Shown here in pieces: positions 2,831 through 40,793 of a DNA stretch of 42,412 bases (the first letter of the stretch is position 1; every line of letters begins with the position of its first letter). A program made the translations under genes and the position numbers. The notes beneath the pieces are model-generated. The model worked only from the letters and a program-made list of their open reading frames with translations. It had not been told where the DNA came from and made no database searches. Origin of the DNA: an uncultured Prevotella sp. (GTDB lineage: Bacteria; Bacteroidota; Bacteroidia; Bacteroidales; Bacteroidaceae); assembly GCA_905210845.1 (NCBI GenBank), contig CAJLYG010000005.1, positions 1 through 42,412 of the forward strand, given 5' to 3'.

Positions 2831-2842
2831 ATACAGACAAAT

Positions 2843-4330: not shown

Positions 4331-4386
4331 AAGTCAAGGAATAACACATAGGGAGATCCATCGTGATCTCTCTATGTCGTGAAAAG

Positions 4387-9619: not shown

Positions 9620-9631
9620 AATGTCAATCCT

Positions 9632-12946: not shown

Positions 12947-12986
12947 TGTTGTTTGGGTTAGTTTAAAATATGGTGAATATAAAGTA

Positions 12987-13901: not shown

Positions 13902-13953
13902 AATGGTTTATGGTTCTCTCTTAAAAGAGGAAAAAGACATAAACCACACGTAG

Positions 13954-14520
13954 TTACCGATAGTTAAGTAGTGTTAATATCGAGAGTAATGGCAGTAACT
14001 TGCGCAAATGGGTAAGAGCAGCTGATATATGAGTTTCGACGGTACGCTTGCTAATACCGAGACGCTGTGCAATATCTGCATTGCTCAGTCCATCAACACG
14101 GCTCATGATAAACACACGCCGACGCTGCTCAGGCATTGAGTCTATCTCACGAAAAATAAAATTATAAAGTTCGTCGTAACACATCTTCAAGTCGCCGGAC
14201 ATATCGTTGGCTTGAATGTCTGTAGCCAACTCATGCTCACAATGCATCAGTGATTGCTTTACACAACGTATCGCCGCATTGCGAGCAGAAATGAATAAAT
14301 AGTTATCAAGATTCTCAATTTTTGAGAAGCGTTCTCGCTTGATCCATAGTTCCATAAATAGGTCCTGGACAATGTTTTCTGCCTCGCTCTTATCATGGCA
14401 AAAACGCATTGCAAACTGTAATACCTTAGGATAATACTCTACAAACAATGCATCAAAAGCTACCTCGTTGCCATCAGCAAGAGCTAACTTCTTAAAAGTG
14501 CTATTTGTAAACTTATCCAT
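13954..14520 (-). CDS. ECF-type RNA polymerase sigma-70 factor
   Basis: Alternative sigma factor of the FecI-like group common in Bacteroidota. Region 2 is visible at about residues 23-66 (FDALFVEYYPKVLQFAMRF, then AENIVQDLFMELWIKRERF). Region 4, with its helix-turn-helix, is at about 131-175 (RRVFIMSRVDGLSNADIAQR, LGISKRTVETHISAALTHLR). There is no region 1 or 3, as in ECF sigmas. It is the first gene of the minus-strand unit sigma-FecR-SusC-SusD and presumably drives the SusC/D genes once released by FecR. A standard housekeeping promoter lies in front of it at 14552-14581. Confidence 0.96.
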   Translation of the reverse strand: MDKFTNSTFKKLALADGNEVAFDALFVEYYPKVLQFAMRFCHDKSEAENIVQDLFMELWIKRERFSKIENLDNYLFISARNAAIRCVKQSLMHCEHELATDIQANDMSGDLKMCYDELYNFIFREIDSMPEQRRRVFIMSRVDGLSNADIAQRLGISKRTVETHISAALTHLRKLLPLLSILTLLNYR

Positions 14521-20727: not shown

Positions 20728-23520
20728 TTATCTGTTGGTCGGAGGAGATACATTTAAAAAGAGTTGTTGTAATGTATCTATCTCGACAGATACAGCCGGC
20801 TTAAAGTCGGTACTCGACATATAATCTATCAGGCTCTTACGGAGTTGACGTGCTGATGTCCGTTTATCCAGACCATTCATCAAGTCTGCACCAGAAACGA
20901 CCATGGATCCCTTGCCAACCTTTACCTCGAAAACCATTGCCAAGGGGCGAGCCGTGAACCAATCATCAATGATGCGGACGATCGGACGAATATCCTTGGA
21001 AATCTTGTCATAGCGGATCGCATCGGAAAGGCTCATTGCATCCTGCCACTGGTAATCGCTGTGATACGTAGTCGGGAACTCTCTGAAGGCAGGATGCTTG
21101 GGATCACAGAGAATGCCTAAGGTATGTGGCGGACAATGATTTGTCCATAAGGTGTTCCAGAAAATACTGGAGAAGCCAACTGCCACGTCTCCGCCATATT
21201 CCTTGCTTACCCTGCCACGACCTAACGACAGCAATACTTTACCTCCTTGACGCAATACCCGTATGGCATGTGTATCAAGGGTGTCTGTGACTAAGATGTC
21301 TCGTCTCGTCTGGACTTCATGTTGGGGGTACACCCAGAAATTCCAGTCATTGCTCCTGCCATTAACGGTCACCTCAAGATTCAGTTGCTGTGGAGTGGTC
21401 ACGAAGTCTAAAGGGAATTCGATGTTGCCCATCTTCTGGCAATTCCCGATTGTGATGTCCTTGGGATCCAACTTACCTGACTTCAGGAGGTTGCCAGCTT
21501 GGTCTTCTACTCCCCAGATCACCTGTGCTCCGCGGATGGGTTCTTGGTAATCGGCAACCTCAACACTTGCACGGAAGACCTCGTCGTTGTTGTAGACTAA
21601 TTTGTCCATTCTTGCCAAGGGGACAAGGCTATTGCAGAACCGACTGTATTCCTTACTGGTAACATACCCTTTGTCATCCCAAAAGACATCCACGACACCC
21701 GTTAGGGCAGTACCCTGTCCAGGGAAATCATTTAATCCCAATAGCTCGAACCCTCCGAAGTCCTTGGTCCGTAATGCTGCTTCGATATCAGCCTTGTAGC
21801 AAAGTACTTGCAATTTACCAGAAGCTAACAGAAAACTGTCAGCATACTGAAGCAGGTGATTGTCGCGGAGGCGATCCTGGAATATCTCGAAGTTATGTGC
21901 CTTGAAAGCACCTGTATATTTTTTGATTTCCTCGAACCGGGGATAGACACACCATTGACCGATCTCATGGCTGATGATAGGCTGGTGGAACTTTGATACG
22001 TACCCTGACCAGTCATACCGTGTGGAGGGCTCCTGTGCGTTAATGATACTTTTTAGTCCTGCGCCCCAAAGTTGGATACGAGGATTTGCGTCACTCAGCC
22101 AGTCGCTTTCCTCGATATTGGGCCAGCCTGCGGCTGTTGTATAGATCCTGCGGTTGTCCTTTGCTTTCCAATAAGTAACGAACTTCCGAAGATAAGAAGT
22201 ACAATTCTTCCCAGCCGGTTCGTTGCCATAAGACATCATGCAGAAAGACGGGTGGTTACCATAAGCCTTCACGATGGCTTCCGATTCTTGGTAGATAAAA
22301 TCGTCGATGGGTTTCCCATCCCCTAATGTCGTTGACTGGTTCGCCCAAGAAGAACATTCGACATAGCAATAGATCCCCATCTCGTCAGCTACCTCGAAGG
22401 CGATATCCGGTGGGCACCAGGAATGGAACCTCACATGGTTGAGTCCATAATTTTTGTAAACACTAAAAACACGTTGCCAATAGGACTTGTCAAAAGAAGG
22501 GTATCCAGTGAGGGGGAACGTGCAGCAATCCACGTTTCCGCGCATGAAAACGGGATGCCCGTTCAGGGTAAGCGTGCCATCCTGATGCCCCCATTCACGA
22601 CAGCCGTAGGTAATCATCCGCTCGTCCCGTTCCTTATTTACAGACACTGCTACGCTCAGCTTGTAGAGGTTTGGATGGAATTCATCCCAGTATTCCACTC
22701 CCTCTGGAATGGCTATGGTCTTCTCGATATGATTGTTCCCAGGAGATAGAACTTGTTGGAAATGTTGGTCGCCGATTTGTAGATCTGCATTCTTTACCTT
22801 TTTCCCGGCATTTGTCACATTCATCTTTACCGTGATGGTATGGGCTGAGAGCAAAGGGTAGACATCTATCCGATCGAAACATACCCGAGGATAGACATTC
22901 AGGCTGATATTCCCAACGATACCATTCCAAAGTCCCTGTGTATTGTCACTGATGCTGTGTCCATTCTCACCAGGGTCAATATCCTTGATCCGATTATCCA
23001 CAAGAATACTTAACGTATGCCGACCGGGCGTGAGATAAGAAGAAAGGTCATACTCCTGGGGTGCACATAGACGGTTGTTCGATCCCACCTTTGTGCCATC
23101 CACATATACCACAGATTCCCAGTGGGCACGCTCCATATTCAGCTTGATGGTCTGATTCTTCCAAGACTTGGGGATCTCAATTACCCGTTGGTACCAGGCA
23201 GGACCTACATAGTATTTCTCAGGTTGCAGGATAAACGGCACCTTGATATTTCCCGGTTGGCGATACTTGGCATAGAACGTCCCATGATAATAAGGATTGC
23301 GCTCATCAATTTCCATCATCCAAGGAGTCTGAAGTGAAATCTCATCCCCTTTGCCATTGGTCAGCATCGAACCTGGTAATCGAATTGAGTCATCAAACTG
23401 GGCGGGTATCTCCTCACCGCCTTCATGAAATAGCCAGCGGCCACTCAGGTCTATGGATTTCTGCGCATGGATACTGATGAATAACCAGCATAAAGATAAT
23501 GTCAATGCGATTCTTTTCAT
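20728..23520 (-). CDS. Secreted GH2-family glycoside hydrolase (beta-galactosidase-like)
   Basis: Retaining exo-glycosidase of family GH2, 930 residues, with a signal peptide ending at IHAQ (residue 20). The N-terminal jelly-roll sugar-binding domain (SIDLSGRWLF...WYQRVIEIPKSW, about 21-215) is followed by an immunoglobulin-like domain. The TIM barrel begins near LNGHPVFMRGNVDCC. The acid/base is Glu434 in MMSYGNEPAG and the likely nucleophile is Glu519 in ISHEIGQW. The segment FGGFELLGLNDFPGQGTA is typical of a Bacteroidota GH2 subgroup whose members need not be true beta-galactosidases, so specificity stays open (beta-galactoside, beta-glucuronide or arabinopyranoside are possible). It is a monocistronic minus-strand gene with its own promoter, divergent from the GH95-like genes. 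Confidence 0.9.
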   Translation of the reverse strand: MKRIALTLSLCWLFISIHAQKSIDLSGRWLFHEGGEEIPAQFDDSIRLPGSMLTNGKGDEISLQTPWMMEIDERNPYYHGTFYAKYRQPGNIKVPFILQPEKYYVGPAWYQRVIEIPKSWKNQTIKLNMERAHWESVVYVDGTKVGSNNRLCAPQEYDLSSYLTPGRHTLSILVDNRIKDIDPGENGHSISDNTQGLWNGIVGNISLNVYPRVCFDRIDVYPLLSAHTITVKMNVTNAGKKVKNADLQIGDQHFQQVLSPGNNHIEKTIAIPEGVEYWDEFHPNLYKLSVAVSVNKERDERMITYGCREWGHQDGTLTLNGHPVFMRGNVDCCTFPLTGYPSFDKSYWQRVFSVYKNYGLNHVRFHSWCPPDIAFEVADEMGIYCYVECSSWANQSTTLGDGKPIDDFIYQESEAIVKAYGNHPSFCMMSYGNEPAGKNCTSYLRKFVTYWKAKDNRRIYTTAAGWPNIEESDWLSDANPRIQLWGAGLKSIINAQEPSTRYDWSGYVSKFHQPIISHEIGQWCVYPRFEEIKKYTGAFKAHNFEIFQDRLRDNHLLQYADSFLLASGKLQVLCYKADIEAALRTKDFGGFELLGLNDFPGQGTALTGVVDVFWDDKGYVTSKEYSRFCNSLVPLARMDKLVYNNDEVFRASVEVADYQEPIRGAQVIWGVEDQAGNLLKSGKLDPKDITIGNCQKMGNIEFPLDFVTTPQQLNLEVTVNGRSNDWNFWVYPQHEVQTRRDILVTDTLDTHAIRVLRQGGKVLLSLGRGRVSKEYGGDVAVGFSSIFWNTLWTNHCPPHTLGILCDPKHPAFREFPTTYHSDYQWQDAMSLSDAIRYDKISKDIRPIVRIIDDWFTARPLAMVFEVKVGKGSMVVSGADLMNGLDKRTSARQLRKSLIDYMSSTDFKPAVSVEIDTLQQLFLNVSPPTNR

Positions 23521-23926: not shown

Positions 23927-24007
23927 ATGAAAAGAAACGTGAGCCTATTGATGCTAACAATGATTTTAGGGGGGGTATTTCCGGATCGGCAAATTCGCCT
24001 AATTTAG
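23927..24007 (+). other. Out-of-frame signal peptide of the first GH95-like gene
   Basis: An ATG at 23927 encodes MKRNVSLLMLTMILGG, a good signal peptide, and then runs into a stop at 24005-24007. The GH95-like frame is different and stays open upstream through this region without a start or signal of its own. Adding one G (or removing two) in the G run at 23969-23975 joins the signal peptide to ISGSANSPNLGISE and on into the enzyme. So the true 5' end of the gene is here, broken by a frameshift. Confidence 0.75.
23969..23975 (+). repeat. Run of seven G at the frameshift point
   Basis: Seven consecutive G residues lie inside the signal-peptide coding sequence, exactly where the reading frame must change to join signal peptide and enzyme. 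With eight G the gene is intact; with seven it is off. This could be a slipped-strand phase-variation tract, a fixed mutation or a sequencing error. Confidence 0.7.
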
Positions 24008-24036: not shown

Positions 24037-26253
24037 TTGCAAAATGTACTTCTTCCCACAAGTAATTCTTTGGAAGAGAGGTCAATTAGTGATTTGTCTT
24101 TTGATTCGCTATCTAAGAAGTGGGATGAAGGCATACCATTGGGAAATGGAGTCGTTGGAGCTGTATTATGGCAAAAAGATGGAAATTTGCGGTTTTCTCT
24201 GGATAGGACTGATTTATGGGATTTACGTCCTATGCCATATTTTGATGATCCTCAGTATACCTTTGAATGGGTCAAGGAACATATACGTGCCAAAAATTAT
24301 AAGCCGGTACAAGAGCATTTTGATAAACCGTATGATCAATTAGCAGCTCCTTCAAAAATTCCAGGAGCAGCTTTGGAATTTTCTTTAAAATCTCTGGGGG
24401 CTCCTACAAAAGTTCGTCTGCTTTTAAAAACTGCTGTTTGTGAAATGAAATGGGATCATGGCGCTACTTTGAAAACTTTTGTATCTGCGACAAAACCTAT
24501 TGGATGGTTTTTGTTTGAAAACGTTCCTTCATCCTTTGTGCCTCGAATCATTATGCCTCAATATGAAAAAGATAAAGCAGAAAAGAATAGCGGACCTGCA
24601 GGAGGACAGGATATCGTTAAGTTAGGCTATTCACAAGGTTCTGTTCGAGTGGAAGCAAATTCTTTAGTTTATCGTCAGAAAGGCTATGGAGGATTTGTTT
24701 ATGAGGTAGCTGTGAAGTGGAAAAGATTTGGTAAAAGTCTTTATGGTATTTGGAGTATTAGCTCTTCTTTGTCAAAGGATAATGCAGAGCAAGATGCCAT
24801 TTCCGCTTTAAAACGTGGCTTCGGCATAGATTTTAATGAACATTTGAAATTTTGGAGGAACTATTGGGCAGCATCTACGGTATCTCTGCCAGACCAAGAG
24901 CTACAAAAACAATATGATAACGATATGTATAAGTTGGGTTCTGTGACAAGATCTTATGGATATCCTATTTCTCTACAATCTGTATGGACGGCCGACAATG
25001 GACATTTGCCACCTTGGAAAGGGGATTTCCATCATGATATGAATACAGAAATGAGTTATTGGTCAGCGTTCGAAGGTAATCATCTCAAAGAGGCTATGGG
25101 ATTTGTAAATACATTATGGAATCAACAAGATGTATATAAGAAATATACCCAGCAATATTTTGGTAAAGGTGGGATGAATATTCCTGGTGTTTGTTCCCTC
25201 ACTGGCGAGCCATTGGGAGGATGGATTCAATATGCAATGTCTCAAACTATAGGTGCATGGCTCGCACAGCAATTCTACTTGCAATGGAAATATTCATCTG
25301 ATGATGTGTTCTTAAAAACGCGAGCTTATCCTTTTATGAAGGAAGTCGCAACCTTCTTAGAGCAGCAAACATGCGTTAATCCTGATGGAAGACGTACTTT
25401 TGAATTTAGTTCGAGCCCAGCCACACATAGAAATGAATTAGAAGCCTGGTTCCCTAAGTTCACTAATTATGATTTGGCATTAACGAAATTTGCTTTTTCT
25501 GCATCATCAGAAATGGCAAACAAATTATCCTTAAAGAATGAAGCTAAACATTGGAAGTCTTTAGAAAATCAGTTGCCAAATTTTATTTTAGATGAAGATA
25601 GTGCTTTAATAGTTGCAGAAGGGTGTTCGGATTTTTCTTATTATCATTTCTCAACTGCCTTAGCAATATGTCCGTTAGGTTTAATAAATTGGTCGGATGG
25701 TCCCCAATCTCAGAAAATAATACGCTCAACACTTGATAAATGTTGGAAGGCGGGCACGAAAAGATGGTGGGGCGCGACTTTTGCGTGGATGGCTAATTTG
25801 GAAGCTTTAGCCAGAAATGGAGATAAAGCTTATGAGGCATTAAAGACTTTTACCAAGTGTTTTGTTTCTCCAAATACGTTCCATTTAGATGGTGATCAAA
25901 GTGGCACGGGTGTCTCTGACTATACAGACCGTTCTTTTACTTTAGAAGGTAATTTCGCATTTGCGTCTGCTATTCATAAAATGTTGATGCAAAGTCATAA
26001 CGGAACAGTATATATATTCCCAGCAATTCCTTCTTCGTGGTCAAATGTTTCGTTTCGGAATTTGCGAGCAGAAGGTGCCTTCTTGATTTCGGCAGAGATG
26101 CGAGATCGGCGTATAGTGGATTTACAGGTATATTCTGAGAAGGGGGGAGCTTTTTCTATTGCATCTCCAGTTACAGGGAAAGTATTCAAATATATGATGA
26201 AGCGTGGAGAATCTAAGTCATTGATAGACATCTGTTCCTCCAAGTCCAATTAG
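24037..26253 (+). CDS. GH95-like putative glycoside hydrolase, paralog 1 (signal peptide out of frame)
   Basis: First of three tandem paralogs. The open frame is in phase from upstream, but its only nearby starts are weak (TTG at 24037); the real start is probably the frameshifted ATG at 23927. The N-terminus has the GH95-like WDEGIPLGNGVVGAVLW and LDRTDLWDLRPM. The (alpha/alpha)6 core has PPWKGDFHHDMNTEMSYWSA, and the C-terminus has FTLEGNFAFASAIHKMLMQS and FPAIPSSW. Compared with GH95 (NINTEMNYW, DGNFG), it has D-x-N (about residue 334) and E-G-N-F (about 637). Unlike copies 2 and 3, the HRH motif is changed to YYHFSTAL. GH95 enzymes remove alpha-L-fucose or alpha-L-galactose; the activity of this variant is unknown. 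It may be decaying, or switched by the G run. Confidence 0.75.
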   Translation: MQNVLLPTSNSLEERSISDLSFDSLSKKWDEGIPLGNGVVGAVLWQKDGNLRFSLDRTDLWDLRPMPYFDDPQYTFEWVKEHIRAKNYKPVQEHFDKPYDQLAAPSKIPGAALEFSLKSLGAPTKVRLLLKTAVCEMKWDHGATLKTFVSATKPIGWFLFENVPSSFVPRIIMPQYEKDKAEKNSGPAGGQDIVKLGYSQGSVRVEANSLVYRQKGYGGFVYEVAVKWKRFGKSLYGIWSISSSLSKDNAEQDAISALKRGFGIDFNEHLKFWRNYWAASTVSLPDQELQKQYDNDMYKLGSVTRSYGYPISLQSVWTADNGHLPPWKGDFHHDMNTEMSYWSAFEGNHLKEAMGFVNTLWNQQDVYKKYTQQYFGKGGMNIPGVCSLTGEPLGGWIQYAMSQTIGAWLAQQFYLQWKYSSDDVFLKTRAYPFMKEVATFLEQQTCVNPDGRRTFEFSSSPATHRNELEAWFPKFTNYDLALTKFAFSASSEMANKLSLKNEAKHWKSLENQLPNFILDEDSALIVAEGCSDFSYYHFSTALAICPLGLINWSDGPQSQKIIRSTLDKCWKAGTKRWWGATFAWMANLEALARNGDKAYEALKTFTKCFVSPNTFHLDGDQSGTGVSDYTDRSFTLEGNFAFASAIHKMLMQSHNGTVYIFPAIPSSWSNVSFRNLRAEGAFLISAEMRDRRIVDLQVYSEKGGAFSIASPVTGKVFKYMMKRGESKSLIDICSSKSN

Positions 26254-26458
26254 TTAAAAGAAAAAGTATAATTAGGAATTGCAAAATATATAAAAAATTA
26301 TCTGAAAGTTTTATAGGGCTTTTGCGTTGTGATGAATAAGCTATAATCATTGCTCGCTTCAAACTTATTAATCGTATTTACAGTGAGTTGGGATAAAAAT
26401 AAAATCCTAGCTAGAGATCATCTAACATATATATTCTCTAATCATCAACTTAAAAAAC

Positions 26459-28681
26459 ATGAAAAAAGTTTTATTGTTAGTCTGCTGCATCTGCTTGTCT
26501 TCCTTTCAAGTTTTGCATGCAAACAAGCCATCAAAAAAAAGTGATTTAATCTTTAGTCATTTTGCTAAAAACTGGGATGAAGGCATCCCTTTAGGGAATG
26601 GGGTCGTAGGGGCACTCATTTGGCAGAAGAATGCAAAATTGCGTTTTGCTTTAGACAGAACGGATTTATGGGATTTGCGTCCAATGCATTACTTTGATGA
26701 CCCAACCTACAACTTTGAGTGGGTTAAGCAACATATTCGAGCCAAAGATTATAAACCTGTTCAAGATCATTTTGATGCCCCTTATGAGGCTAATGCTGCG
26801 CCAGCGAAAATACCAGGTGCTGCATTAGAATTTCCTCTTTCATTATTAGGTTCACCTACAGAAGTCAGATTGTTGTTAGGGGATGCTGTTTGCCAAGTGA
26901 CATGGAAGAATGGTGCTTCCTTACGCACTTTTGTTTCGGCAACAAGACCTATAGGTTGGTTTGTTTTTAAAAAAGTGCCATCCTCTTTTGTTCCAGAAAT
27001 AATCATGCCAGTCTATGAAAAGACTAAAGCGGATAAAAGGCAGGGGCCTTCTGGTGGACAAGATGTCGCGCAATTAGGCTATCCACAAGGTAGCTTGAAG
27101 AAAACCGGTAATATGATAGTTTATCACCAGCCAGGTTATAATGGCTTCAGTTATGAAGTGGCAGTTACATGGAAGCGTACCGCTGATGGCATATGTGGCG
27201 TTTGGAGTATCAGTACAACTTTGTCTAAAGACCAAGCTAAAAGGGATGTTCTCAATGCAATGAAAAGAGGGATGGATTCCGATTTTAAAGAACATTTAGG
27301 TTTTTGGAATAAGTATTGGGGGGCATCCTCAGTTAGTGTGCCAGATGATCTGTTACAAAAGGAATATGATAATGATATGTATAAATTTGGCGCATCAGCC
27401 CGTTCCTATGGCTATCCTGTACCCCTTCAGGCAGTATGGACTGCTGACAATGGACATCTTCCCCCATGGAAAGGAGATTACCATCATGATCTAAATACTC
27501 AGTTGAGTTATTGGCCTGCTTTCGAAGGTAACCATCTCTCAGAAAGCCAGGGCTTTGTCAATACATTGTGGAATCAACAGGATGCTTATAAAAAGTATAC
27601 TAAGCAATATTTCGGGAAAGAGGGATTAAACGTCCCTGGCGTTTGCTCTTTAACAGGAGAGCCTTTAGGTGGTTGGATCCAGTATGCAATGTCACAATCA
27701 ACAGGTGCATGGTTATCTCAATATTTCTATTGGCAATGGAAATTCTCTGCTGATGACAATTTTTTAAGAGCCCGTGCATATCCTTTTATAAAAGAAGTTG
27801 CAACCTTCTTAGAGCAACAGACAACAATAGGACCTGACGGTAAGCGCACGCTTGAATACAGTTCTAGTCCTGAAATGAATCGGAATTCGCTACAAGCGTG
27901 GTTCCCTAAGTTTACAAATTATGATTTATCCCTAACAAAGTTTGCTTTTAGGGCGTCTTCTGAGATGGCAAAGCATTTAGGATTAGACGAAGATTCACGC
28001 CATTGGAAATTAATGGAAAGTCAGCTTCCTGATTATTATATGACAAGTGATAGCGCATTAACAGTTGCTAAAGATTATCCAGATTTCACACATCGTCATT
28101 TTTCTAATGCAATGGCGATATTTCCTTTAGAACTGATCGATTGGAGTGATGGTCCTCAAGCGCAAAAAATTATTCGTTCGACATTGGATAAATCCTGGGA
28201 GGTTGGTACAAAAGGATGGTGGGGATTCACGTTCGTATGGATGGCCCATTTGGAGGCAAGAGCAAGAAATGGCGAGGCAGCTTGCAAAGCTCTAAGAACA
28301 TTTGCTCAGAATTTTGTTTCTCCAAACACTTTCTGCCTGAATGGAGATCAAAGTGGGAAGGGAATCTCTGACTATACAGATCGTGCCTTTACATTAGAGG
28401 GAAATTTTGCATTTGCGTCTGGCATTCAACAAATGTTGATGCAAAGTCAGCGAGGTGTGATAAAAATCTTTCCTGCTATCCCGGCCTCGTGGAAAAATGT
28501 ATCCTTCAAGAATTTACGTGCAGAAGGTGCTTTCTTAGTTTCTGCTGTCCTAAAGCAGGGGAAAGTTGTCTCTGCTAATATCTTTTCTGAGAAAGGAGGG
28601 CAAACGAAAGTTATTTCCCCTTCTTCAGGGAAAGTTATTACATTGAATATGAAACCTGGAGAGATGAGGGCAATCAAATAA
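26459..28681 (+). CDS. GH95-like putative glycoside hydrolase, paralog 2
   Basis: Second and apparently intact copy, 740 residues. The signal peptide (MKKVLLLVCCICLSSFQVLHA, residues 1-21) should send it to the periplasm. Motifs in order are WDEGIPLGNGVVGALIW (39-55), LDRTDLWDLRPM (65-76), PPWKGDYHHDLNTQLSYWPA (335-354) with Asp344 and Asn346 where GH95 has the catalytic Asn pair, EYSSSPE (466-472), HRHFSNAM (545-552), and FTLEGNFAFA (644-653) with Glu647 where GH95 has the general-acid Asp. By eye it is well over half identical to both neighbours. It lies 205 bases after copy 1, in a gap with no gene seen, and shortly before copy 3. The substrate is not known; a fucose- or galactose-type alpha-linkage is the first guess. 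Confidence 0.82.
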   Translation: MKKVLLLVCCICLSSFQVLHANKPSKKSDLIFSHFAKNWDEGIPLGNGVVGALIWQKNAKLRFALDRTDLWDLRPMHYFDDPTYNFEWVKQHIRAKDYKPVQDHFDAPYEANAAPAKIPGAALEFPLSLLGSPTEVRLLLGDAVCQVTWKNGASLRTFVSATRPIGWFVFKKVPSSFVPEIIMPVYEKTKADKRQGPSGGQDVAQLGYPQGSLKKTGNMIVYHQPGYNGFSYEVAVTWKRTADGICGVWSISTTLSKDQAKRDVLNAMKRGMDSDFKEHLGFWNKYWGASSVSVPDDLLQKEYDNDMYKFGASARSYGYPVPLQAVWTADNGHLPPWKGDYHHDLNTQLSYWPAFEGNHLSESQGFVNTLWNQQDAYKKYTKQYFGKEGLNVPGVCSLTGEPLGGWIQYAMSQSTGAWLSQYFYWQWKFSADDNFLRARAYPFIKEVATFLEQQTTIGPDGKRTLEYSSSPEMNRNSLQAWFPKFTNYDLSLTKFAFRASSEMAKHLGLDEDSRHWKLMESQLPDYYMTSDSALTVAKDYPDFTHRHFSNAMAIFPLELIDWSDGPQAQKIIRSTLDKSWEVGTKGWWGFTFVWMAHLEARARNGEAACKALRTFAQNFVSPNTFCLNGDQSGKGISDYTDRAFTLEGNFAFASGIQQMLMQSQRGVIKIFPAIPASWKNVSFKNLRAEGAFLVSAVLKQGKVVSANIFSEKGGQTKVISPSSGKVITLNMKPGEMRAIK

Positions 28682-28766
28682 GATCTATTAGCCATTTGTC
28701 CCTTTAACTCTTTTGACGGGGGCAATTTGGCTTTAGATGTATTTTCTGAATAATGCAATGTTTATT

Positions 28767-30995
28767 ATGGGAAAATTTTTCTTTTTGTTGATAATTTTTG
28801 GCTGCTTTTCCTACTTTGGTAGAGCCTCGTCTATATGGAATAATGCTTCAAGTAGTGATTTGACTTTCAATAGTCTTGCCCAGAGATGGGATGAAGCAAT
28901 TCCACTTGGAAACGGTGTCGTTGGGGCATTGATCTGGGAAAAAGGAGGAAATCTGCGTTTCGCCCTTGATCGAACAGATTTATGGGATTTACGCCCTATG
29001 CACTACTTTGATGATCCTACATATACATTTGAGTGGGTAAAGCAGCATATAAGGAATCATAATTATCAGCCAGTCCAAGACCATTTTGATATTCCATATG
29101 ATAATGTTGTCGCTCCCTCCAAAATACCTGGGGCAGCATTAGAATTTCCCATGAAGGTATTGGGGAAAGTAAAATACGTCCATCTATTTCTTAAAACAGC
29201 GGTTTGTAAGGTAGATTGGATGAATGGATCTTCTTTGCAAACTTTTGTGTCAGCCCATGAGCCCATAGGTTGGTTTGTTTTTAATCATGTTCCCTCTAAT
29301 TTTACCCCTGAGATTATAATGCCTCGATATGAAAGTGCTGATGTTAAAGCGAGTACTGCTTTTTCGGGCGGTCAGGATGTAGCTTTGCTAGGATATCCTC
29401 AAGGTATACTTGGAAAAAAAGGCACAACAATTACTTATCATCAATTAGGATATAATGGCTTTAGTTATGATGTCGCTGTTTCTTGGAAGAGAGTTAAGAA
29501 TTCTATCTACGGAGTTTGGAGCATAACAAGTACACATTCTTCATTAAATGCGGAAAGTAACGTACATGCGGCTTTATCACGTGGATTTATCCATGATCTC
29601 AATGCTCATTTGGCGTATTGGAAAAAATATTGGAATGCGTCATCTGTAACTATTCCTGACGTTGAATTACAAAAGGAATATGATAATGATATGTATAAGT
29701 TTGGGTCTGTAGCTCGGTCTCATGCTTATCCAATATCTTTGCAGGCAGTATGGACTGCTGATGATGGGCATTTACCCCCTTGGAAAGGAGACTATCATCA
29801 TGATTTGAATACGCAGCTAAGTTATTGGCCTGCTTATGAAGGGAACCATGTTTCAGAGAGCATGGGCTTTGTCAATACATTATGGGATCAGCAAGATGTT
29901 TATAAAAAGTACACTAAGCAATATTTTGGAAAAGAAGGACTAAACGTCCCTGGCGTTTGCTCTTTAACAGGAGAGCCTTTAGGGGGCTGGATTCAATATG
30001 CTATGTCACAAACGACAGGAGCATGGCTTGCTCAATATTTTTATTTGCATTGGAAGTATACAGCTGATGATGTTTTCCTAAAGACGAGGGCATATCCTTT
30101 TGTGAAGGAAATTGCCAGATTCCTTGAACAACAGACTTCATTAAATAATGTAGGTAAAAGAACATTAGAATTTAGCTCAAGTCCGGAACTTAATAGAAAT
30201 ACCTTGCAAGCATGGTTCTCTGGATTTACCAATAATGATTTGGCTCTCACACGTTTTGCTTTTCACATTGCTTCAGAAATGGCACATCACTTATCTTTAT
30301 GGGACGAAGAAAGGCATTGGGCATTATTAGAGAGTCAACTTCCTGATTATTATGTAGATGAAGATGGGGCTCTGATGTTAGCAGAAAGAGTTCCGGTTGT
30401 TTCTCACCGGCATCTTTCTCATGCAATGGCAATTTTCCCTCTTGCATTAATTGATTGGTACGATGATCAAAAATCAAAGATGATAATCCGGTCTACATTA
30501 GATAAGCTTTGGGATGTAGGTGTAGAAGAATGGTGGGGCTTCAGTTATGTATGGATGGCTAATCTTGAGGCTATGGCACAAAATGGCGAGAACGCATATA
30601 AGGCATTAAAGACGTTTGTCCATCATTATGTTTCTCAGAATACATTTTGCCTTAATGGGAATCAAGGGAGTAAGGATGCAGGGCAGTTTAGGGGAAGAAC
30701 TTTCTCGCTTGAAGGTAATTTCGCATTCGCTTCTGGAATACAGAAAATGTTACTGCAAAGTCATCGGGGCATTGCATATGTATTCCCAGCAATTCCTCAT
30801 AAATGGAGGGATGTTTCATTTAATAATTTACGACTGCCAGGTGCATTCCTCGTCTCGGCAACGATGCGCAATGGGAGGATAATCAAATTGAAAGTATTTT
30901 CTGAGAAGGGTGGCGACTTCTCAATAGTGTCACCATCAACGAAGCAGGTCTTACATTATAAGATGAAAGTCGGAGAGAGCATTTCTATTTGTTAA
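28767..30995 (+). CDS. GH95-like putative glycoside hydrolase, paralog 3
   Basis: Third copy, 742 residues from the ATG at 28767. I chose this over 28737 because it places the signal peptide MGKFFFLLIIFGCFSYFGRA at the very start. It keeps WDEAIPLGNGVVGALIWEKG, LDRTDLWDLRPMHYFDDP, PPWKGDYHHDLNTQLSYWPA, SHRHLSHAMAIFPL (the copy closest to the classical GH95 HRHLSH motif) and FSLEGNFAFASGIQKMLLQS. Like the other two it has D-x-N and E-G-N-F in place of the GH95 catalytic residues. It lies 19 bases before the SusC gene, so enzyme and importer are one operon. A family shift in mechanism or substrate relative to GH95 is inference. Confidence 0.82.
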   Translation: MGKFFFLLIIFGCFSYFGRASSIWNNASSSDLTFNSLAQRWDEAIPLGNGVVGALIWEKGGNLRFALDRTDLWDLRPMHYFDDPTYTFEWVKQHIRNHNYQPVQDHFDIPYDNVVAPSKIPGAALEFPMKVLGKVKYVHLFLKTAVCKVDWMNGSSLQTFVSAHEPIGWFVFNHVPSNFTPEIIMPRYESADVKASTAFSGGQDVALLGYPQGILGKKGTTITYHQLGYNGFSYDVAVSWKRVKNSIYGVWSITSTHSSLNAESNVHAALSRGFIHDLNAHLAYWKKYWNASSVTIPDVELQKEYDNDMYKFGSVARSHAYPISLQAVWTADDGHLPPWKGDYHHDLNTQLSYWPAYEGNHVSESMGFVNTLWDQQDVYKKYTKQYFGKEGLNVPGVCSLTGEPLGGWIQYAMSQTTGAWLAQYFYLHWKYTADDVFLKTRAYPFVKEIARFLEQQTSLNNVGKRTLEFSSSPELNRNTLQAWFSGFTNNDLALTRFAFHIASEMAHHLSLWDEERHWALLESQLPDYYVDEDGALMLAERVPVVSHRHLSHAMAIFPLALIDWYDDQKSKMIIRSTLDKLWDVGVEEWWGFSYVWMANLEAMAQNGENAYKALKTFVHHYVSQNTFCLNGNQGSKDAGQFRGRTFSLEGNFAFASGIQKMLLQSHRGIAYVFPAIPHKWRDVSFNNLRLPGAFLVSATMRNGRIIKLKVFSEKGGDFSIVSPSTKQVLHYKMKVGESISIC

Positions 30996-31014
30996 ACATA
31001 AACATTAATAATCT

Positions 31015-34000
31015 ATGACTAAAAAGATTTATTCATGGGCGTTGGCTCTTTGCCTCGCTCTTTGGGGAGGAAACGTTTATGCTGTTTCACCCGGGCCGAT
31101 TGGCAACTCTATTTTGCAACAGAAGGATTTATGTACAGGAATCATCCATGATAATAGTGGAGATCCGATCATTGGTGCAACTATTTCGATTAGAGGAGGA
31201 AAGATAGGCGCTGTTTCTGATGTGGATGGAAGGTTTTCAATATCAGGAATTCAGCGCGGAGTAACTCTCCACATTTCTTACATTGGATATAAGGATGTTG
31301 ATATCGTTTGGACAGGAGGATCTATAAACGTCACGATGGTAGCAGACGATATGACATTGAATGAAATTGTCGTGGTAGGATTTGGTTCTCAAAAGAAAGC
31401 TGATTTAACAGGTAGCGTGTCCACCGTTAGTGCAAAAGATATAACAGCTCGTCCAGTTAATTCTGTCGTAGATGCTCTTCAAGGTGTCGTTCCTGGTATG
31501 AACTTCTCTGTTGGAGCTAGTGGGGGAAGCCTTAACTCCTCAGAAACGTTTAATATACGTGGTCGAGGGACTATTGGCGCAGGTTCTTCAGTAACGCCTT
31601 TAGTGCTTATTGATGGAATGGAGGGAGACTTGTCAACATTGAATCCTGAAGATGTTGACAATATCTCAGTATTAAAAGATGCATCATCATCTTCAATATA
31701 TGGGTCTCGTGCAGCAGGTGGAGTTATTCTTGTTACTACAAAAACTGGTAAGGCAGGAAAAGCCAGAGTGAGCTATAATAATAACTTCAGATTTGGAATG
31801 CCAATGAATATGCCGGAAATGATGGATTCCTATTCTTGGGCTCTTTACATGAATGACGCAAGTAAATATGGGGGATCAGGTATATGGTTTAGTGATGCGA
31901 AACTTGAACAAATCAAAGCTGCGATGTCTGATCGCTCTAAGCCAACCATGTTTAAAAATCCTGGTACTAACCATTGGGAGGTATGGGATGTAAATGATTT
32001 GCTGCCTGTTGGAAATACGGATTGGTTGAAAGAGCATTTTACAAATAGTTTTTCTCAAGAGCATGCTGTCAGTGCTACTGGGGGATCAGAAGGGATTCAT
32101 TACTACTTCTCTGGTGATGTGTTGAGCCGCCAAGGTTTACTCCGCCATGGGAGAGATAAGAAGAATAGGTATAATCTTACTTCAAAGGTTGACGCACAAC
32201 TAACTAAATGGGTAAAGGCAACCTATTCCATGCGATTTACTCGTACCGATTATAATGGTCCTACCTTTATAGATAATAATGTTTTCTATCACAATGTCTG
32301 CCGCTACTGGCCAATTATTCCAGCGAAGGATCCCAATGGGCATTATGTTCCGGAATCATTTATCTCGGAACTTACCACAGGAGGGCGTCATAAGAATCAA
32401 GAGGATGTAATAGCTCAGCAACTTGCCTTGTGTTTTACACCGGTTAAAGGATTGGTTGTCAATGCAGAACTCAATTATCGCATCAATACAAATAATCAAC
32501 ATATTGAATGGTTGACTACGTATGGATATGATGTTGACAATAATCCTTATGCTACCAATAACCAAAACAACTCTGTAAAAGAGTATTATCTGAAGCAGAA
32601 TTATTTTAATCCCAATATTTGGGCGGAATATAGTCTTTCTTTGAAAGATGCTCATAATTTCAAGATTATGACTGGTTTCCAAAGTGAAGAAATGCATCAA
32701 AACTGGTTCTCAGGGCAACAATATGGCATTGTTGCTAATTTACCTACCTTGCACACTACATCTAAAAATCCCAAAGTTGATGGGAAACCAGAGAAGTGGA
32801 CGACTGCAGGATTTTTTGGCCGATTGAATTATGATTATTTGGGTAAATATCTTTTTGAAGGCAATTTGCGGTATGATGGATCTTCTCGGTTCCTACGTAA
32901 TAATCGATGGAATTGGTTCCCGTCTTTCTCTGTAGGTTGGAATATTGCGAGAGAGAATTTTTGGAAACCAATAGAAGAGTATGTGAATTCGCTTAAGTTG
33001 AGAGCTTCTTGGGGAAAATTGGGAAATCAGAATACTGATAGTTGGTATCCATTTTATTCAACAATGTATTATGCGAACCAAGGAGGAGAATGGCTGATTG
33101 ATGGTAAAAAGCCAAATGTCTCTGGTGAGCCATCTTTGGTTTCAGCAACGCTTACTTGGGAGAAAAGTAGGACTTGGGAAGTCGGTCTTGATTGGGGCGC
33201 ATTTAATAATCGCTTGACAGGATCTTTCTCTTATTTCCAAAGAAAAACTTATGATATGGTTGGTCCGGCTCCAGAGCTTCCTGTTATTTTAGGAACAGCT
33301 ACACCAAAAGTTAATAATCTTGATATGACCTCTAAAGGATGGGATTTGCAAATTTCGTGGCGTGATCGTATTAATACATTTGAATATGGTATTAACCTGA
33401 TATTGAGCGATAGTAAAGTTGTTATAGACAAATACCCCAATGATTCCAAAGATTTAGGACAAACTTATTATAAAGGAGCTCATTTAGGGGATATTTGGGG
33501 ATATAAGACAGTAGGGATTGCTAAGAGTCAAGAAGAGATGGATCAGCATCTAAAGAATGCAGATCAAAGTTCTCTTGGTAGTAATTGGGCTGCTGGAGAC
33601 GTAATGTATGCAGATATAAACGGCGATCATAAAGTTAATAATGGAGAGAATCGAGCTGATAATGCCGGCGATTTGAAAATTATTGGGAATTCTACTCCAA
33701 GGTATAATTTTGGACTCAATATGACTGCGGCCTGGAAAGGAATAGATGTTAAAGTATTTTTCCAGGGTACTCTTAAACGAGACTATGCACCAGGTAGAAG
33801 TGACGCTGTTTTCTGGGGGGCATGTGGAATCAACAAGTGGCAGGCAATAGGTTTTAAAGAGCATCTTGACTATTTCCGTGATTCTAATAGTCCTTTGGGG
33901 GAAAATTTGGATAGCTACTATCCTCGTCCGAATTGGAGAAGTAGTAGAAATAATTACACGCAAACGCGATACCTGCAGAATGCTGCTTATTGCAGGTTGA

Positions 34001-34221
34001 AGAATCTTACGATAGGATATACACTTCCTCAACAGCTTACGAAAAGAATATATGTTCAGTCTTTGCGCTTCTTTGTATCGGCGGAGAATTTGTTTACAAT
34101 AACTAACTTTACGAGACTGGGTGATCCGGAGATTATCGATGCTCGAGGTTATGATGATGGATTGAGCAAAACTTATCCTTTGACAAAGAATTTCTCTTTT
34201 GGCATGAATATTACCTTATAA
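31015..34221 (+). CDS. SusC-like TonB-dependent outer-membrane receptor (third pair)
   Basis: Outer-membrane oligosaccharide channel, 1068 residues. It has a signal peptide ending near VYAVS (residue 24), a carboxypeptidase-regulatory-like domain (about 41-110; TGIIHDNSGDPIIGATISIR, HISYIGYKD), the TonB box LNEIVVVGFGSQKKADLTGS (about 115), the plug (FNIRGRGTIGAG, LVLIDGMEGDLSTLNPEDVD, ISVLKDASSSSIYGSRAAGG) and a barrel ending FGMNITL. It has no STN domain, so unlike the second pair it is not a FecR-type transducer. It directly follows the three GH95-like genes and precedes its SusD by 23 bases, which points to the product of those enzymes or their polymer as cargo. Confidence 0.96.
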   Translation: MTKKIYSWALALCLALWGGNVYAVSPGPIGNSILQQKDLCTGIIHDNSGDPIIGATISIRGGKIGAVSDVDGRFSISGIQRGVTLHISYIGYKDVDIVWTGGSINVTMVADDMTLNEIVVVGFGSQKKADLTGSVSTVSAKDITARPVNSVVDALQGVVPGMNFSVGASGGSLNSSETFNIRGRGTIGAGSSVTPLVLIDGMEGDLSTLNPEDVDNISVLKDASSSSIYGSRAAGGVILVTTKTGKAGKARVSYNNNFRFGMPMNMPEMMDSYSWALYMNDASKYGGSGIWFSDAKLEQIKAAMSDRSKPTMFKNPGTNHWEVWDVNDLLPVGNTDWLKEHFTNSFSQEHAVSATGGSEGIHYYFSGDVLSRQGLLRHGRDKKNRYNLTSKVDAQLTKWVKATYSMRFTRTDYNGPTFIDNNVFYHNVCRYWPIIPAKDPNGHYVPESFISELTTGGRHKNQEDVIAQQLALCFTPVKGLVVNAELNYRINTNNQHIEWLTTYGYDVDNNPYATNNQNNSVKEYYLKQNYFNPNIWAEYSLSLKDAHNFKIMTGFQSEEMHQNWFSGQQYGIVANLPTLHTTSKNPKVDGKPEKWTTAGFFGRLNYDYLGKYLFEGNLRYDGSSRFLRNNRWNWFPSFSVGWNIARENFWKPIEEYVNSLKLRASWGKLGNQNTDSWYPFYSTMYYANQGGEWLIDGKKPNVSGEPSLVSATLTWEKSRTWEVGLDWGAFNNRLTGSFSYFQRKTYDMVGPAPELPVILGTATPKVNNLDMTSKGWDLQISWRDRINTFEYGINLILSDSKVVIDKYPNDSKDLGQTYYKGAHLGDIWGYKTVGIAKSQEEMDQHLKNADQSSLGSNWAAGDVMYADINGDHKVNNGENRADNAGDLKIIGNSTPRYNFGLNMTAAWKGIDVKVFFQGTLKRDYAPGRSDAVFWGACGINKWQAIGFKEHLDYFRDSNSPLGENLDSYYPRPNWRSSRNNYTQTRYLQNAAYCRLKNLTIGYTLPQQLTKRIYVQSLRFFVSAENLFTITNFTRLGDPEIIDARGYDDGLSKTYPLTKNFSFGMNITL

Positions 34222-34244
34222 ATTATCTTTAAAACTATGTTATT

Positions 34245-36263
34245 ATGAAACTGAGATATTTAAATGTGATTATGGGGCTTGTAATTATCTGCTTAGCTTC
34301 CTGTAATGATTTTCTTGACCAAACGCCTGAGGGTGATATTACCCCTCAAAAATATTTTTCTTCAGAAGCAGACTTGGCCGCATTTACTGTGAATTATTAT
34401 AACTTTAGATCTATTCCTCCCTATGCTTATGCTTTAAGCTATTGGGGAGATGACAATGATACAGATAATCAAGCTGCGATGAATTACTCTTCCAGATGGG
34501 CTCCTGGAGAGTGGAAAGTTCCATCAAGCGGTGGTCAATGGGATTTTTCCAGAATCCGTCATATAAACTATTTCTTGGAGCAAACGATGGAAAAATATAA
34601 AGCGAATCAAATTCAGGGCAATGACGCAAATATACGGCATTATATTGGCGAAGCTCATGTAATGAGGGCCTATGAATATATTAAAAAACTTCAAAACTTA
34701 GGCGATTGTCCAATAGTAACTTCTGCGTTGAGTGATAATAAAGAAGCCCTCATTGCGGCTTCGAAGCGTCAGCCGTCTTATAAAGTCGCTCGTTTTATAT
34801 TGAATGACCTTGATACTGCAATCACTATGCTCAAGGATACCCCGCCCCAAGGTGGTAAATGTAGGATAGGAAAAGATGTTGCATATTTATTGCGTTCTCG
34901 GGCAGCCTTGTTTGAGGGGACCTGGTTAAAATATCACAAGGGAACAGCTTTCGTGCCAGGAGGGACAGGCTGGCCAGGGAACTCAGAAGATATCCAAGGA
35001 TTCAATATCGATGATGAAATCAAATATTTCTTGTCAGAAAGTATGAAATCAGCTAAGATCGTAGGCGATAGAGTAGTTGACAATTTAGTAGTTAATACAG
35101 ATACTCAAGAAGGCATGGATGCATCATTTAATGTTATCAATCCTTATTATTGCATGTTCTGTGATGAAAATATGGAGAATTACAGTGAGATATTAATGTG
35201 GCGTTCTTATAGTGTCGCAGAAGGTATTACCCATAATGTCCAACTTTGTCTCGAAAATGATGGCGGAGGTTCTGGATGGACACGGGGTTTGGTGAATTCT
35301 TTCCTCATGCGTAATGGCTTACCTATATATGCATCTGGTTCTGGATATAATTCGGATTGGGAAAAAGCAGGCGTAGCCGCTACGCTAAAAGATAGGGATT
35401 CAAGAATTCAGCTGTTTACAAAAAAGGATGGAGATATAGAGGACTATCATTCGGACGGTAGTGTAAATCATGTTGATTATACGTGGATAGCGAAGGGCAT
35501 CTCTGAAAATAGAATGGTTACAGGATTCCCGATTAAGAAAGGTAAGCACTACTCTCCAGTGATGAGGATTCAGCATGATCATGGAACATCGGGAAGTGTT
35601 GTCTTTCGCGCAACAGAAGCAATGCTAAATTATATGGAAGCAAGTTATGAACTGAATGGCAATATTGATGCCACATGCGATAAATACTGGCGTGCATTGC
35701 GTGTAAGAGCCAAAGTGAATCCTGATTATAAAGTTACAATAGCGGCAACTTCCATGGGTGAAGAAGCTAAAGGTGATTGGGGAGCATATTCACATGGTAT
35801 GTTAATCGATCCCACTCTTTATAATATAAGGCGGGAACGTCGAAATGAATTTATAGGGGAAGGTCTTCGTTGGGCAGATTTGTGCCGTTGGAGAGCATTA
35901 GACCAAGTCCGTAATTATCAGATAGAAGGTATTCGGTATTGGGGATCTATTTATGAAGGAAATCTCCGTTCTAATGTAGATGGGAAAATTGTAGATTTAG
36001 TGAAAGTAGATGAGATTGGTGGTACAGGCAATATGTCATCAAAGGATAGGAGCGTTTATATACGCCCTTATCAAATTTCTAAAGTGAATAATTCTGTTTT
36101 TGATGGATATAATTTTACTCCAGCTCACTACTTGTATCCAATTGCACAGAGCGTATTCCGCCAGACTGCTTCGGGCGATCAGACAGATTTAAATACGTCA
36201 GTTGTTTACCAGAATCCAGGTTGGCCCAAAGTTGCGGATCAGGGGCCCAGTGAAATACGTTAA
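34245..36263 (+). CDS. SusD/RagB-like glycan-binding lipoprotein (third pair)
   Basis: Surface lipoprotein partner of the SusC at 31015-34221. The lipobox is LASC with Cys20, followed by NDFLDQTPEGDITPQKYFSS. SusD segments are IGEAHVMRAYEYIKKLQNLG, DVAYLLRSRAALFEGTWLKY, VVFRATEAMLNYMEASYELN and NIRRERRNEFIGEGLRWADL. At 672 residues it is longer than the other two SusD proteins here, with extra sequence in the middle that may shape a larger binding face. It is the last gene of the GH95-like/SusC/SusD operon and is followed by a strong hairpin. Confidence 0.95.
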   Translation: MKLRYLNVIMGLVIICLASCNDFLDQTPEGDITPQKYFSSEADLAAFTVNYYNFRSIPPYAYALSYWGDDNDTDNQAAMNYSSRWAPGEWKVPSSGGQWDFSRIRHINYFLEQTMEKYKANQIQGNDANIRHYIGEAHVMRAYEYIKKLQNLGDCPIVTSALSDNKEALIAASKRQPSYKVARFILNDLDTAITMLKDTPPQGGKCRIGKDVAYLLRSRAALFEGTWLKYHKGTAFVPGGTGWPGNSEDIQGFNIDDEIKYFLSESMKSAKIVGDRVVDNLVVNTDTQEGMDASFNVINPYYCMFCDENMENYSEILMWRSYSVAEGITHNVQLCLENDGGGSGWTRGLVNSFLMRNGLPIYASGSGYNSDWEKAGVAATLKDRDSRIQLFTKKDGDIEDYHSDGSVNHVDYTWIAKGISENRMVTGFPIKKGKHYSPVMRIQHDHGTSGSVVFRATEAMLNYMEASYELNGNIDATCDKYWRALRVRAKVNPDYKVTIAATSMGEEAKGDWGAYSHGMLIDPTLYNIRRERRNEFIGEGLRWADLCRWRALDQVRNYQIEGIRYWGSIYEGNLRSNVDGKIVDLVKVDEIGGTGNMSSKDRSVYIRPYQISKVNNSVFDGYNFTPAHYLYPIAQSVFRQTASGDQTDLNTSVVYQNPGWPKVADQGPSEIR

Positions 36264-36334: not shown

Positions 36335-36386
36335 CATAGGATCCATATCTACTCCTCATCATCAAAAGTAGATATGGATCCTTATG
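36335..36386 (+). terminator. Strong hairpin terminator after the third PUL
   Basis: A perfect 15-base stem, AGGATCCATATCTAC (36338-36352) pairing with GTAGATATGGATCCT (36368-36382), has a 15-base loop. It is extended by CAT/ATG after a one-base bulge. It lies 75 bases after the SusD stop and before the next promoter. There is no clear T run, which is common for terminators of this phylum. Confidence 0.65.
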
Positions 36387-39450: not shown

Positions 39451-39496
39451 AACGCTTACAAAATGATTATATTTGCACACTCAAAATGTAAGCGTT
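39451..39496. promoter_or_regulatory. 10-base inverted repeat flanking the recombinase promoter
   Basis: AACGCTTACA (39451-39460) and its exact reverse complement TGTAAGCGTT (39487-39496) lie 26 bases apart. The -7-like TATATTTG (39468-39475) is between them, and the second arm touches the start codon at 39497. This placement suits an operator or recombinase-binding site controlling the promoter. Confidence 0.7.
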
Positions 39497-40729
39497 ATGA
39501 AAATCGAAAAATTCAAGGTGTTGCTCTACCTAAAAAAGAGCGGAATGGACAAGAATGGAAAAGCTCCCATCATGGGACGCATCACGGTGAACAGGACTAT
39601 GGCGCAGTTCTCCTGCAAGTTGTCTTGCACTCCATCGCTTTGGAATCCTCGTGCCAGCCGATTGGAGGGCAAGAGCAAGGAAGCCGTGGAGACCAACAAG
39701 GACATCGGGCAGTTGTTGCTTTCCATCCAAAAGGCTTTCGATGTGCTTGTGGAAAAGAGAACGGACTTCGAGGCTAAGGATGTCAAGGAGGCCTTGCAGG
39801 GCAGCGTCAAGACACAGACCACCCTTCTCTCCTTCGTGGACGAGCATATCAGTGAACTCAGCAGCCATGAGGGCATTGATATGTCGAAGAGCAGTGTCTG
39901 GACTTACAGAAAGATTCGCAAGAATCTCGCTGAGTTCATCGGGGAGAAGTATAGGTTGACTGATTTGGCTTTCGGACAGCTGACCGAGCCTTTCATCAGT
40001 GACTTTCACCATTACTTGCTTGACGAGAAAGGCTTTTCATCAGGAACCATCACCATCTATGTGTCGCTCTTCAAGAAGATGTGCCGCATCGCCTTTGAGC
40101 GAGGTTTGTGCAAGAACCTGCTGTTCGCCCATTATCGGGTTGGCACTCCAAAGGTTACGACACCCAAGGCTCTCAGCATGTCTGATTTCATAAAAATTCG
40201 TGATGTGGAACTGCCCGAAGACAAGCCGAGACTATCCGTTAGCCGTGACCTGTTTCTTTTCGCCTGCTATGCAGGAACAGCCTTCATAGACACCGTTTCC
40301 ATCACGAAAGCCAATGTCAAGGTGTTGGAGGATGGTGACAAATGGCTCATCTATAACCGCAAGAAGACCGGAACACTTGCCAGGGTGAAACTCCTGCCCG
40401 AGGCGTTGGAGCTGATGGCGAAATACGAGGACGGGGCAAGAGATACCCTTTTCCCATTGCTGAGCACGAATCGTGTTCGTATCGATCTCATCACCATCTG
40501 CAAGTTGGCGGAAACGAGCAAGACCTATTCCTACCATTCGGGACGACACTCGTTCGCCAGCCTCATTACGCTGGAGGCAGGTGTGCCGATGGAGACCATC
40601 TGCAAGATGCTCGGTCACAAGGATGTGAAGATGACGCAGCGGTATGCGAGAGTGACCCAAAAGAAGCTGTTTGAGGACATGGACAAGTTCATCGCTGCAA
40701 CCGAGAAGGACTTTATTCTCGCATTATGA
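39497..40729 (+). CDS. Tyrosine recombinase/integrase 1
   Basis: Site-specific recombinase of the Bacteroidota conjugative-element type, 410 residues from the ATG at 39497. The N-terminal arm-binding domain (KVLLYLKKSGMDKNGKAPIM) is followed by a SAM-like core-binding domain (SVWTYRKIRKNLAEFIGEKY). The catalytic domain has Lys290 (NRKKTGT), the H-S-G-R box at 347-350, His374 (LGHKDV) and the nucleophile Tyr383 (TQRYARVT). The first catalytic Arg is absent: CYAGTAFIDTVSIT stands where many integrases have TGLR. This is also seen in IntDOT-like enzymes. It lies 64 bases before a second recombinase gene on the same strand. It probably moves the element that begins nearby. Confidence 0.93.
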   Translation: MKIEKFKVLLYLKKSGMDKNGKAPIMGRITVNRTMAQFSCKLSCTPSLWNPRASRLEGKSKEAVETNKDIGQLLLSIQKAFDVLVEKRTDFEAKDVKEALQGSVKTQTTLLSFVDEHISELSSHEGIDMSKSSVWTYRKIRKNLAEFIGEKYRLTDLAFGQLTEPFISDFHHYLLDEKGFSSGTITIYVSLFKKMCRIAFERGLCKNLLFAHYRVGTPKVTTPKALSMSDFIKIRDVELPEDKPRLSVSRDLFLFACYAGTAFIDTVSITKANVKVLEDGDKWLIYNRKKTGTLARVKLLPEALELMAKYEDGARDTLFPLLSTNRVRIDLITICKLAETSKTYSYHSGRHSFASLITLEAGVPMETICKMLGHKDVKMTQRYARVTQKKLFEDMDKFIAATEKDFILAL

Positions 40730-40793
40730 ACAAGGCTTTCAACTTTTCTTTTTACAGTTTCAACTACATTATTATATTATAAGGACAACAACT

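Follow-up and report, generated by a model that had tools for sequence, protein, structure and literature searches.

In a stretch of 42,412 nucleotides from an uncultured Prevotella sp. (contig CAJLYG010000005.1; the full stretch is called the window), three tandem genes, here copies 1, 2 and 3, encode proteins related to glycoside hydrolase family 95 (GH95). Judged from their sequences, they belong to a clade that lies outside ordinary GH95, as its sister. The account that we favor, and to which we give about an even chance, is that the triplet arose by an old tandem triplication, in one unit with its own SusC/SusD importer. Copies 2 and 3 would be inverting exo-glycosidases acting on a sugar of L-fuco or L-galacto type, and copy 1 would be non-catalytic.

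A preliminary description of this DNA had noted three adjacent genes of similar size, more than half identical. The comparison bears this out (Table 1), with pairwise protein identities of 66.6% for copies 1 and 2, 62.7% for copies 1 and 3, and 64.9% for copies 2 and 3. Alignment also confirms the two motif changes that it had seen. HHD-x-N-T (HHDLNT or HHDMNT) and F(T/S)LEGNF are common to all three copies, where the ordinary GH95 rows have H/T-x-N-x-N and PPFQIDGNF.

A large clade with its own signature

We sampled the clade through proteins and through genome contigs. A protein search with copy 2 scored 7994 candidates and gave 6035 relatives at E ≤0.001, the best 120 of which were examined. 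A scan of genome contigs confirmed at least 582 stretches encoding relatives, and the best 80 were kept as loci. The alignment holds 85 clade rows (the three window copies, the 80 loci, a second copy in L031, and L103, which duplicates L010) together with 17 other GH95-domain proteins. Residue numbers are those of copy 2. A signature of 13 residues, H342, D344, N346, E472, H545, R546, H547, W587, Y590, Y641, R642, P643 and E647, is found in 81 of 81 distinct non-window members and in 117 of the best 120 protein matches. The three exceptions are the counterparts of copy 2 (P0001) and copy 1 (P0002) and the window's own copy 3 (P0003). Among 399 genomes of one family, 19 hold a clade match at E 1e-200 or better. 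The signature is carried by 20 of the 21 matches from this set, at least three of which were already counted as L001, L002 and L022; the remaining one, L123, has Phe at 590. D344/N346 and E647 are present in 85 of 85 clade rows, with Asp at 647 in 14 of the 17 comparison rows, and E472 is present in copies 2 and 3 and in all 82 other clade rows, of which 81 are distinct. The 120 matches to one ordinary GH95 protein, which form a narrow sample, have N344, W590, P642 and D647 in every case and H641 in 119. The clade rows include records titled Akkermansia (L035), Planctomycetaceae (L067) and Aminicenantes (L057), and the names given by source records, where there are any, are GH95 or alpha-L-fucosidase 2. 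The motif changes are thus, as far as sequences can tell, the mark of a large separate clade. No published work on it was recognized from titles and the starts of abstracts, subscription papers being mostly beyond reach. A search on GH95 with tandem, gene duplication and Bacteroid likewise gave no paper on the clade by title and abstract start, and searches for 8ZBV and for "GH95-like" found no paper.

The separation from ordinary GH95 is seen in both profile scores and phylogeny, and so the distinct clade proposed in the preliminary description stands. Copies 1, 2 and 3 score 126.9, 158.6 and 147.8 bits with PF22124, the hidden Markov model of the GH95 catalytic domain (cut-off 27). All three also pass the cut-off of the Pfam model for the GH95 C-terminal domain; all three fall under that of PF14498, named for the GH65 N-terminal domain. 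In six genomes, picked because each holds a clade member, PF22124 gave 11 ordinary GH95 matches at 517-610 bits, six clade members at 172-185 bits, one in each genome, and eight others at 19-117 bits. The clade and the window copies together thus span 127-185 bits. In a tree of 57 rows, made by a quick search and with long branches flagged by the program, ordinary GH95 (Shimodaira-Hasegawa-like approximate likelihood ratio test support 100) and the clade with the triplet (97) stand on separate long stems, and the triplet forms one group (100) inside the clade. The predicted structure has the fold of GH95, with an N-terminal beta-sandwich, an (alpha/alpha)6 barrel and a C-terminal sandwich, and the nearest solved structures are 15-23% identical. 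Another structure model, built from a 15-row alignment, was too poor (predicted local distance difference test score 70.5) and was set aside.

Other families were poorer matches, and the leads to GH65, GH141 and DUF5703 that the preliminary description listed for checking did not hold. Only copy 1 gave any GH65 score, 12.9 bits both with PF03633 (cut-off 22) and with NF053734, the kojibiose hydrolase model (cut-off 800); the GH65 alpha-1,2-glucosidase 7fe3 is 14% identical. GH141 gave no match to copies 1-3 at E 0.1, and no NCBIfam model was satisfied by any of them. The match to PF18961 (DUF5703), at 28.9-33.3 bits (cut-off 26.7), is limited to some 40 residues at the N-terminus, and a literature search for DUF5703 with glycoside hydrolase found no paper. 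The fold score of GH139 (BT0984, a 2-O-methyl-fucosidase) is below that of GH95, and it matches in sequence only over some 60 C-terminal profile positions. GH139 has Asn729 in the position of AfcA D766, together with Asp723 (PMC12282258); the clade has Glu647 in the D766 position.

Active-site residues and the divergence of the copies

GH95 and GH139 belong to a small number of families believed to employ asparagine as the base (PMC12282258). In AfcA, N423 is the proposed base, activated by D766, and E566 is the acid (PMC12282258). For N421 two roles are described, to position the acid (PMC12282258) or to act as a second residue of the base (PMC10154630). The equivalents of N421, N423, E566 and D766 in FucOB are N385, N387, E541 and D699; W655 and H693 of FucOB touch fucose, and the loops that contact fucose are critical, as judged from mutants including W655A, H693A, N385A, N387A and D699A (PMC10063614). 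Changing the acid to alanine abolished activity (PMC10063614). The difference between His419 of AfcA and Thr370 of BACOVA_03438 may be what sets a fucosidase apart from an L-galactosidase (PMC4491172).

Residues were mapped through alignments with FucOB and with the ordinary GH95 rows. In common with the GH95 members AfcA, FucOB, BACOVA_03438, Xac1774 and 8zbv, the clade has the fold, the fucose-type His (H342), the base Asn (N346, for AfcA N423), the acid (E472, for E566) and HRH. It replaces N421 by Asp344 and D766 by Glu647, and, at FucOB sites, the stacking W655 by Tyr590, the sugar-binding H693 by Tyr641 and the next Pro by Arg. The preliminary description had set the motif changes beside the catalytic Asn pair and Asp of GH95; two of these three residues are replaced, and N423 is kept. 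Nor is the change at N421 by itself distinctive, since Asp also stands there in the solved GH95 protein 8zbv, deposited as an alpha-L-fucosidase from Pontiella sulfatireligans, and in L099, a protein that the GH95 model scores at 553 bits. The full signature differs from that of all five solved GH95 members with alignments examined. Because the His, the base Asn, the acid and HRH are retained, GH95-like catalysis is plausible in the clade, but the sugar pocket differs, the Trp, His and Pro positions reading Tyr, Tyr and Arg. Of the "altered mechanism or substrate" proposed earlier, the mechanism part is weakened because N423 and, in copies 2 and 3, the acid are kept and the replacement of D766 is still a carboxylate.

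The more telling change, which the preliminary description missed, is the loss in the window copies of two Tyr that are nearly fixed in the clade, and of the acid in copy 1. Position 590 is A, F and F, and position 641 is D, D and G, in copies 1, 2 and 3. At near-invariant clade sites copies 1, 2 and 3 have 15, 9 and 17 departures, compared with a median of 2 and a maximum of 7 in 82 other clade rows scored in the same way with near relatives removed. With two Tyr lost, the -1 pocket of copies 2 and 3 is changed relative to the clade, so that they probably act on another sugar or linkage than is usual there.

Copy 1 is not the equivalent of the other two. It alone has E472A, H545Y and R546Y (SSSPE to SSSPA, HRH to YYH), and its frame opens with TTG and has no in-frame signal peptide. 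Just upstream, an ATG followed by a signal-peptide-like sequence (MKRNVSLLMLTMILGG) is separated from the frame of copy 1 at a run of seven G (G7, positions 23969-23975), the longest such run found in the window; we infer that this was the original signal peptide. Since the acid is lost, and the FucOB mutant with alanine at the acid has no activity, copy 1 is expected to be inactive by the GH95 mechanism and is, on its residues, a probable pseudo-enzyme. The earlier idea that the copies cover different linkages of one glycan thus stays possible for copies 2 and 3 and, by that mechanism, does not extend to copy 1. Its counterpart P0002 has the same residue losses and the same called start. However, the 12 differences between the two all lie in the first 264 residues, and the other 474 (265-738) are identical, which makes P0002 weak independent evidence for the losses. 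The pattern of these differences looks like recombination between strains. The counterpart of copy 2 found elsewhere, P0001, is 96% identical. The tree branches from the triplet ancestor measure 0.42 for copy 1 and 0.45 for copy 3.

We suggest the following mechanism for the favored account. Copies 2 and 3, whose N-termini look signal-like by eye, would be exported to the periplasm or the surface, where they would cut off a terminal alpha-linked sugar of L-fuco or L-galacto configuration that caps galactose. The chemistry would be a single displacement with inversion, in which Glu472 would act as the acid and a water placed by Asn346 and Asp344 would attack, with the carboxylate supplied by Asp344 or Glu647. 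Removal of the sugar would expose beta-D-galactose for the neighboring GH2 enzyme. Copy 1, which lacks the acid, two residues of HRH and the export signal, would be either a remnant without catalysis or a protein retained for binding.

The triplet unit, its neighbors and related loci

All genes of the unit are on the plus strand and all three copies are uninterrupted. The gaps between copy 1, copy 2, copy 3, SusC and SusD are, in order, 205, 55, 19 and 23 bases. The GC content at third codon positions (GC3) of the unit from 24037 to 36263 is 0.30-0.335, the lowest among 22 genes examined. Acquisition of the unit as one block can be only weakly inferred, because the GH29 gene at 4363-5775 has a similar GC3 (0.342).

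Table 1. Features of the triplet unit and its borders
Feature	Position	Strand	Remarks
Divergent GH2, nearest BT4151 type	20728..23520	-	1099.5 bits, equivalog cut-off of 1500 not reached; upstream of triplet
ATG and signal-peptide-like start	23927..23975	+	splits from copy 1 frame at G7
Copy 1, GH95-sister-clade protein, 738 aa	24037..26253	+	TTG start; probable pseudo-enzyme
Copy 2, predicted GH95-sister-clade exo-glycosidase, 740 aa	26459..28681	+	D344, N346, E472, HRH545-547 and E647 kept
Copy 3, predicted GH95-sister-clade exo-glycosidase, 752 aa	28737..30995	+	Y590 to F, Y641 to G
SusC/RagA outer-membrane transporter of triplet unit	31015..34221	+	
SusD glycan-binding lipoprotein of triplet unit	34245..36263	+	
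Perfect 16-nt inverted repeat, 3' of SusD	36338..36382	.	terminator-like score on minus strand only; triplet unit on plus strand

The preliminary description had the motif change amplified in one operon with SusC and SusD. The tandem unit followed by SusC and SusD is there, but the motif change was not produced by amplification at this locus, because it is common to all sampled clade members, including those of the six genomes with a single clade-range match. That triple tandems are uncommon holds within the sample. A second clade copy lies within the fetched flanks in one of 80 loci (L031) and three copies in none, many contigs stopping before 10 kb, which limits this count. Among the 399 genomes two have two matches, on different contigs in G068 and about 280 kb apart in G285; this census cannot count triplets because it scored two candidates per genome. 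Triplets of clade genes are thus rare within our sample.

GH2 is the commonest enzyme family over two sets of same-strand neighbors within two genes of a clade gene, among the top 25 families listed per set, with GH2_N at 14 of 88 and 4 of 100. GH29 was counted at 4 of 88 and 5 of 100, outnumbering GH2 in the second set, and GH43 and GH10 at 4 and 3 of 88 in the first. Relatives of the window GH2 itself are found in the flanks of 8 of the 80 loci. The single clade genes of Phocaeicola massiliensis and P. faecalis (L002, L005) adjoin relatives of the window SusC (49%) and SusD (44-45%). They differ from the window in having one copy per locus and an intact Tyr pair, and in being followed by AraC, RraA, an MR/MLE dehydratase, SDR, SMP-30 lactonase, a sodium symporter and GH2.

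The cassette of L002 and L005 looks as if it serves the oxidation of a sugar. RraA, MR/MLE and SDR occur near a clade gene in 5 of the 80 loci (L002, L005, L060, L071 and L074), with cassette proteins 66-69% (L060), 78-85% (L071) and 62-67% (L074) identical to those of L002. The cassette (RraA-like aldolase, MR/MLE sugar-acid dehydratase, SDR and GH2; positions 12244-22191 in L002) is conserved near the clade gene in distant Bacteroidota, some versions adding SMP-30 lactonase or the sodium symporter. As a control, the L002 MR/MLE was searched for at E 1e-150, giving 2 of 395 phylum genomes (G002, its source, and G584) and 3 of 399 family genomes (G002, G068 and G375). G002, G068 and G375 hold the clade gene, at about 2 kb from MR/MLE in G068; in G375 the two are on different contigs, each close to a contig end. 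In G584 the clade gene was not found at E 1e-100, and the cassette sits with other genes. The link with the clade gene is real but does not reveal which sugar is involved. Because a cassette of this kind is also present where the clade gene was not found, we treat it as a lead rather than as proof of the product.

In several gut species (L006:3541-6828, from Bacteroides fragilis with its single clade copy, and L010, L013, L014 and L022), the clade gene and GH2 genes have a DUF5107/TPR protein and a sugar-porter transporter close by. PF22124 also matches, at 84-116 bits, two more groups related to GH95 (L096, L097, L100 and L007:4100-6457), with active-site motifs of their own (NLNVQLTYW and HLNYNSQAGFY). 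Elsewhere in the window, a second utilization unit at 59-7306 has SusC, SusD, a GH29-type fucosidase and a sulfatase, the last with GC3 of 0.61 against 0.34-0.39 in its neighbors. At 7949-14520 a third SusC/SusD pair is accompanied by a FecR protein and an open reading frame resembling a sigma factor, the SusC (9632-12946) and the sigma frame being labeled by eye. Two adjacent frames at 39473-42005 (high GC3, 0.67 and 0.60) look by eye like tyrosine recombinases.

Alternative readings and implications

The active copies could be ordinary alpha-L-fucosidases that release L-fucose, with the pocket changes as tolerated variants. The retained fucose-type His342, acid and base Asn agree with this, as do the GH29 neighbors of clade genes and the Asp for N421 in 8zbv. 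We consider it unlikely, however, since the Trp-to-Tyr, His-to-Tyr and Pro-to-Arg changes are present in all 81 sampled non-window members, the FucOB loops that contact fucose are critical (PMC10063614), and the clade falls outside ordinary GH95 in the tree. A reading that goes further than ours takes the clade as an unclassified family for a sugar other than L-fucose, with the carboxylate Asp344 joining or replacing the Asn base, and the triplet as reshaped for a new sugar with one copy kept as a pseudo-enzyme. This we hold to be unlikely too, by a slightly lesser degree.

The state of the copies could also be read as decay, in which selection on the unit has ceased and each of the three copies drifts. 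The missing acid and export signal of copy 1 and the many departures in all three would fit. But the three frames are open over 738-752 codons, copies 2 and 3 retain the acid, HRH, the Asp/Asn/Glu set and signal-like N-termini, and copy 2 has its close counterpart P0001 (P0003, the window's own, is no witness for copy 3); decay of the whole triplet is thus quite improbable. Copy 1 might instead be kept as a pseudo-enzyme that binds glycan or works inside the cell, rather than being a remnant. Its open frame, a branch no longer than that of copy 3, and the allele P0002 with the same losses and start speak for this, yet P0002 is not an independent sample and hints at recombination, and we doubt that copy 1 is kept in this way. 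Somewhat better placed, though still on the unlikely side, is the reading that the frame break comes from faulty assembly or from slippage in the G7 tract, such that copy 1 would be exported in some or all cells. The break sits at the longest G run found, a usual place for both, but P0002, whose N-terminus has diverged, has its called start there too, and the missing acid would stay missing in any case.

Since this natural clade keeps the Asn but has a carboxylate two residues before it, it offers a ready comparison for testing which of the residues serves as base. Members are not rare, and because source records, where they name them, use GH95 or alpha-L-fucosidase 2, the fucosidase activity predicted for many genomes may be in error. 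In the triplet, a single locus shows the stepwise change of an active site.
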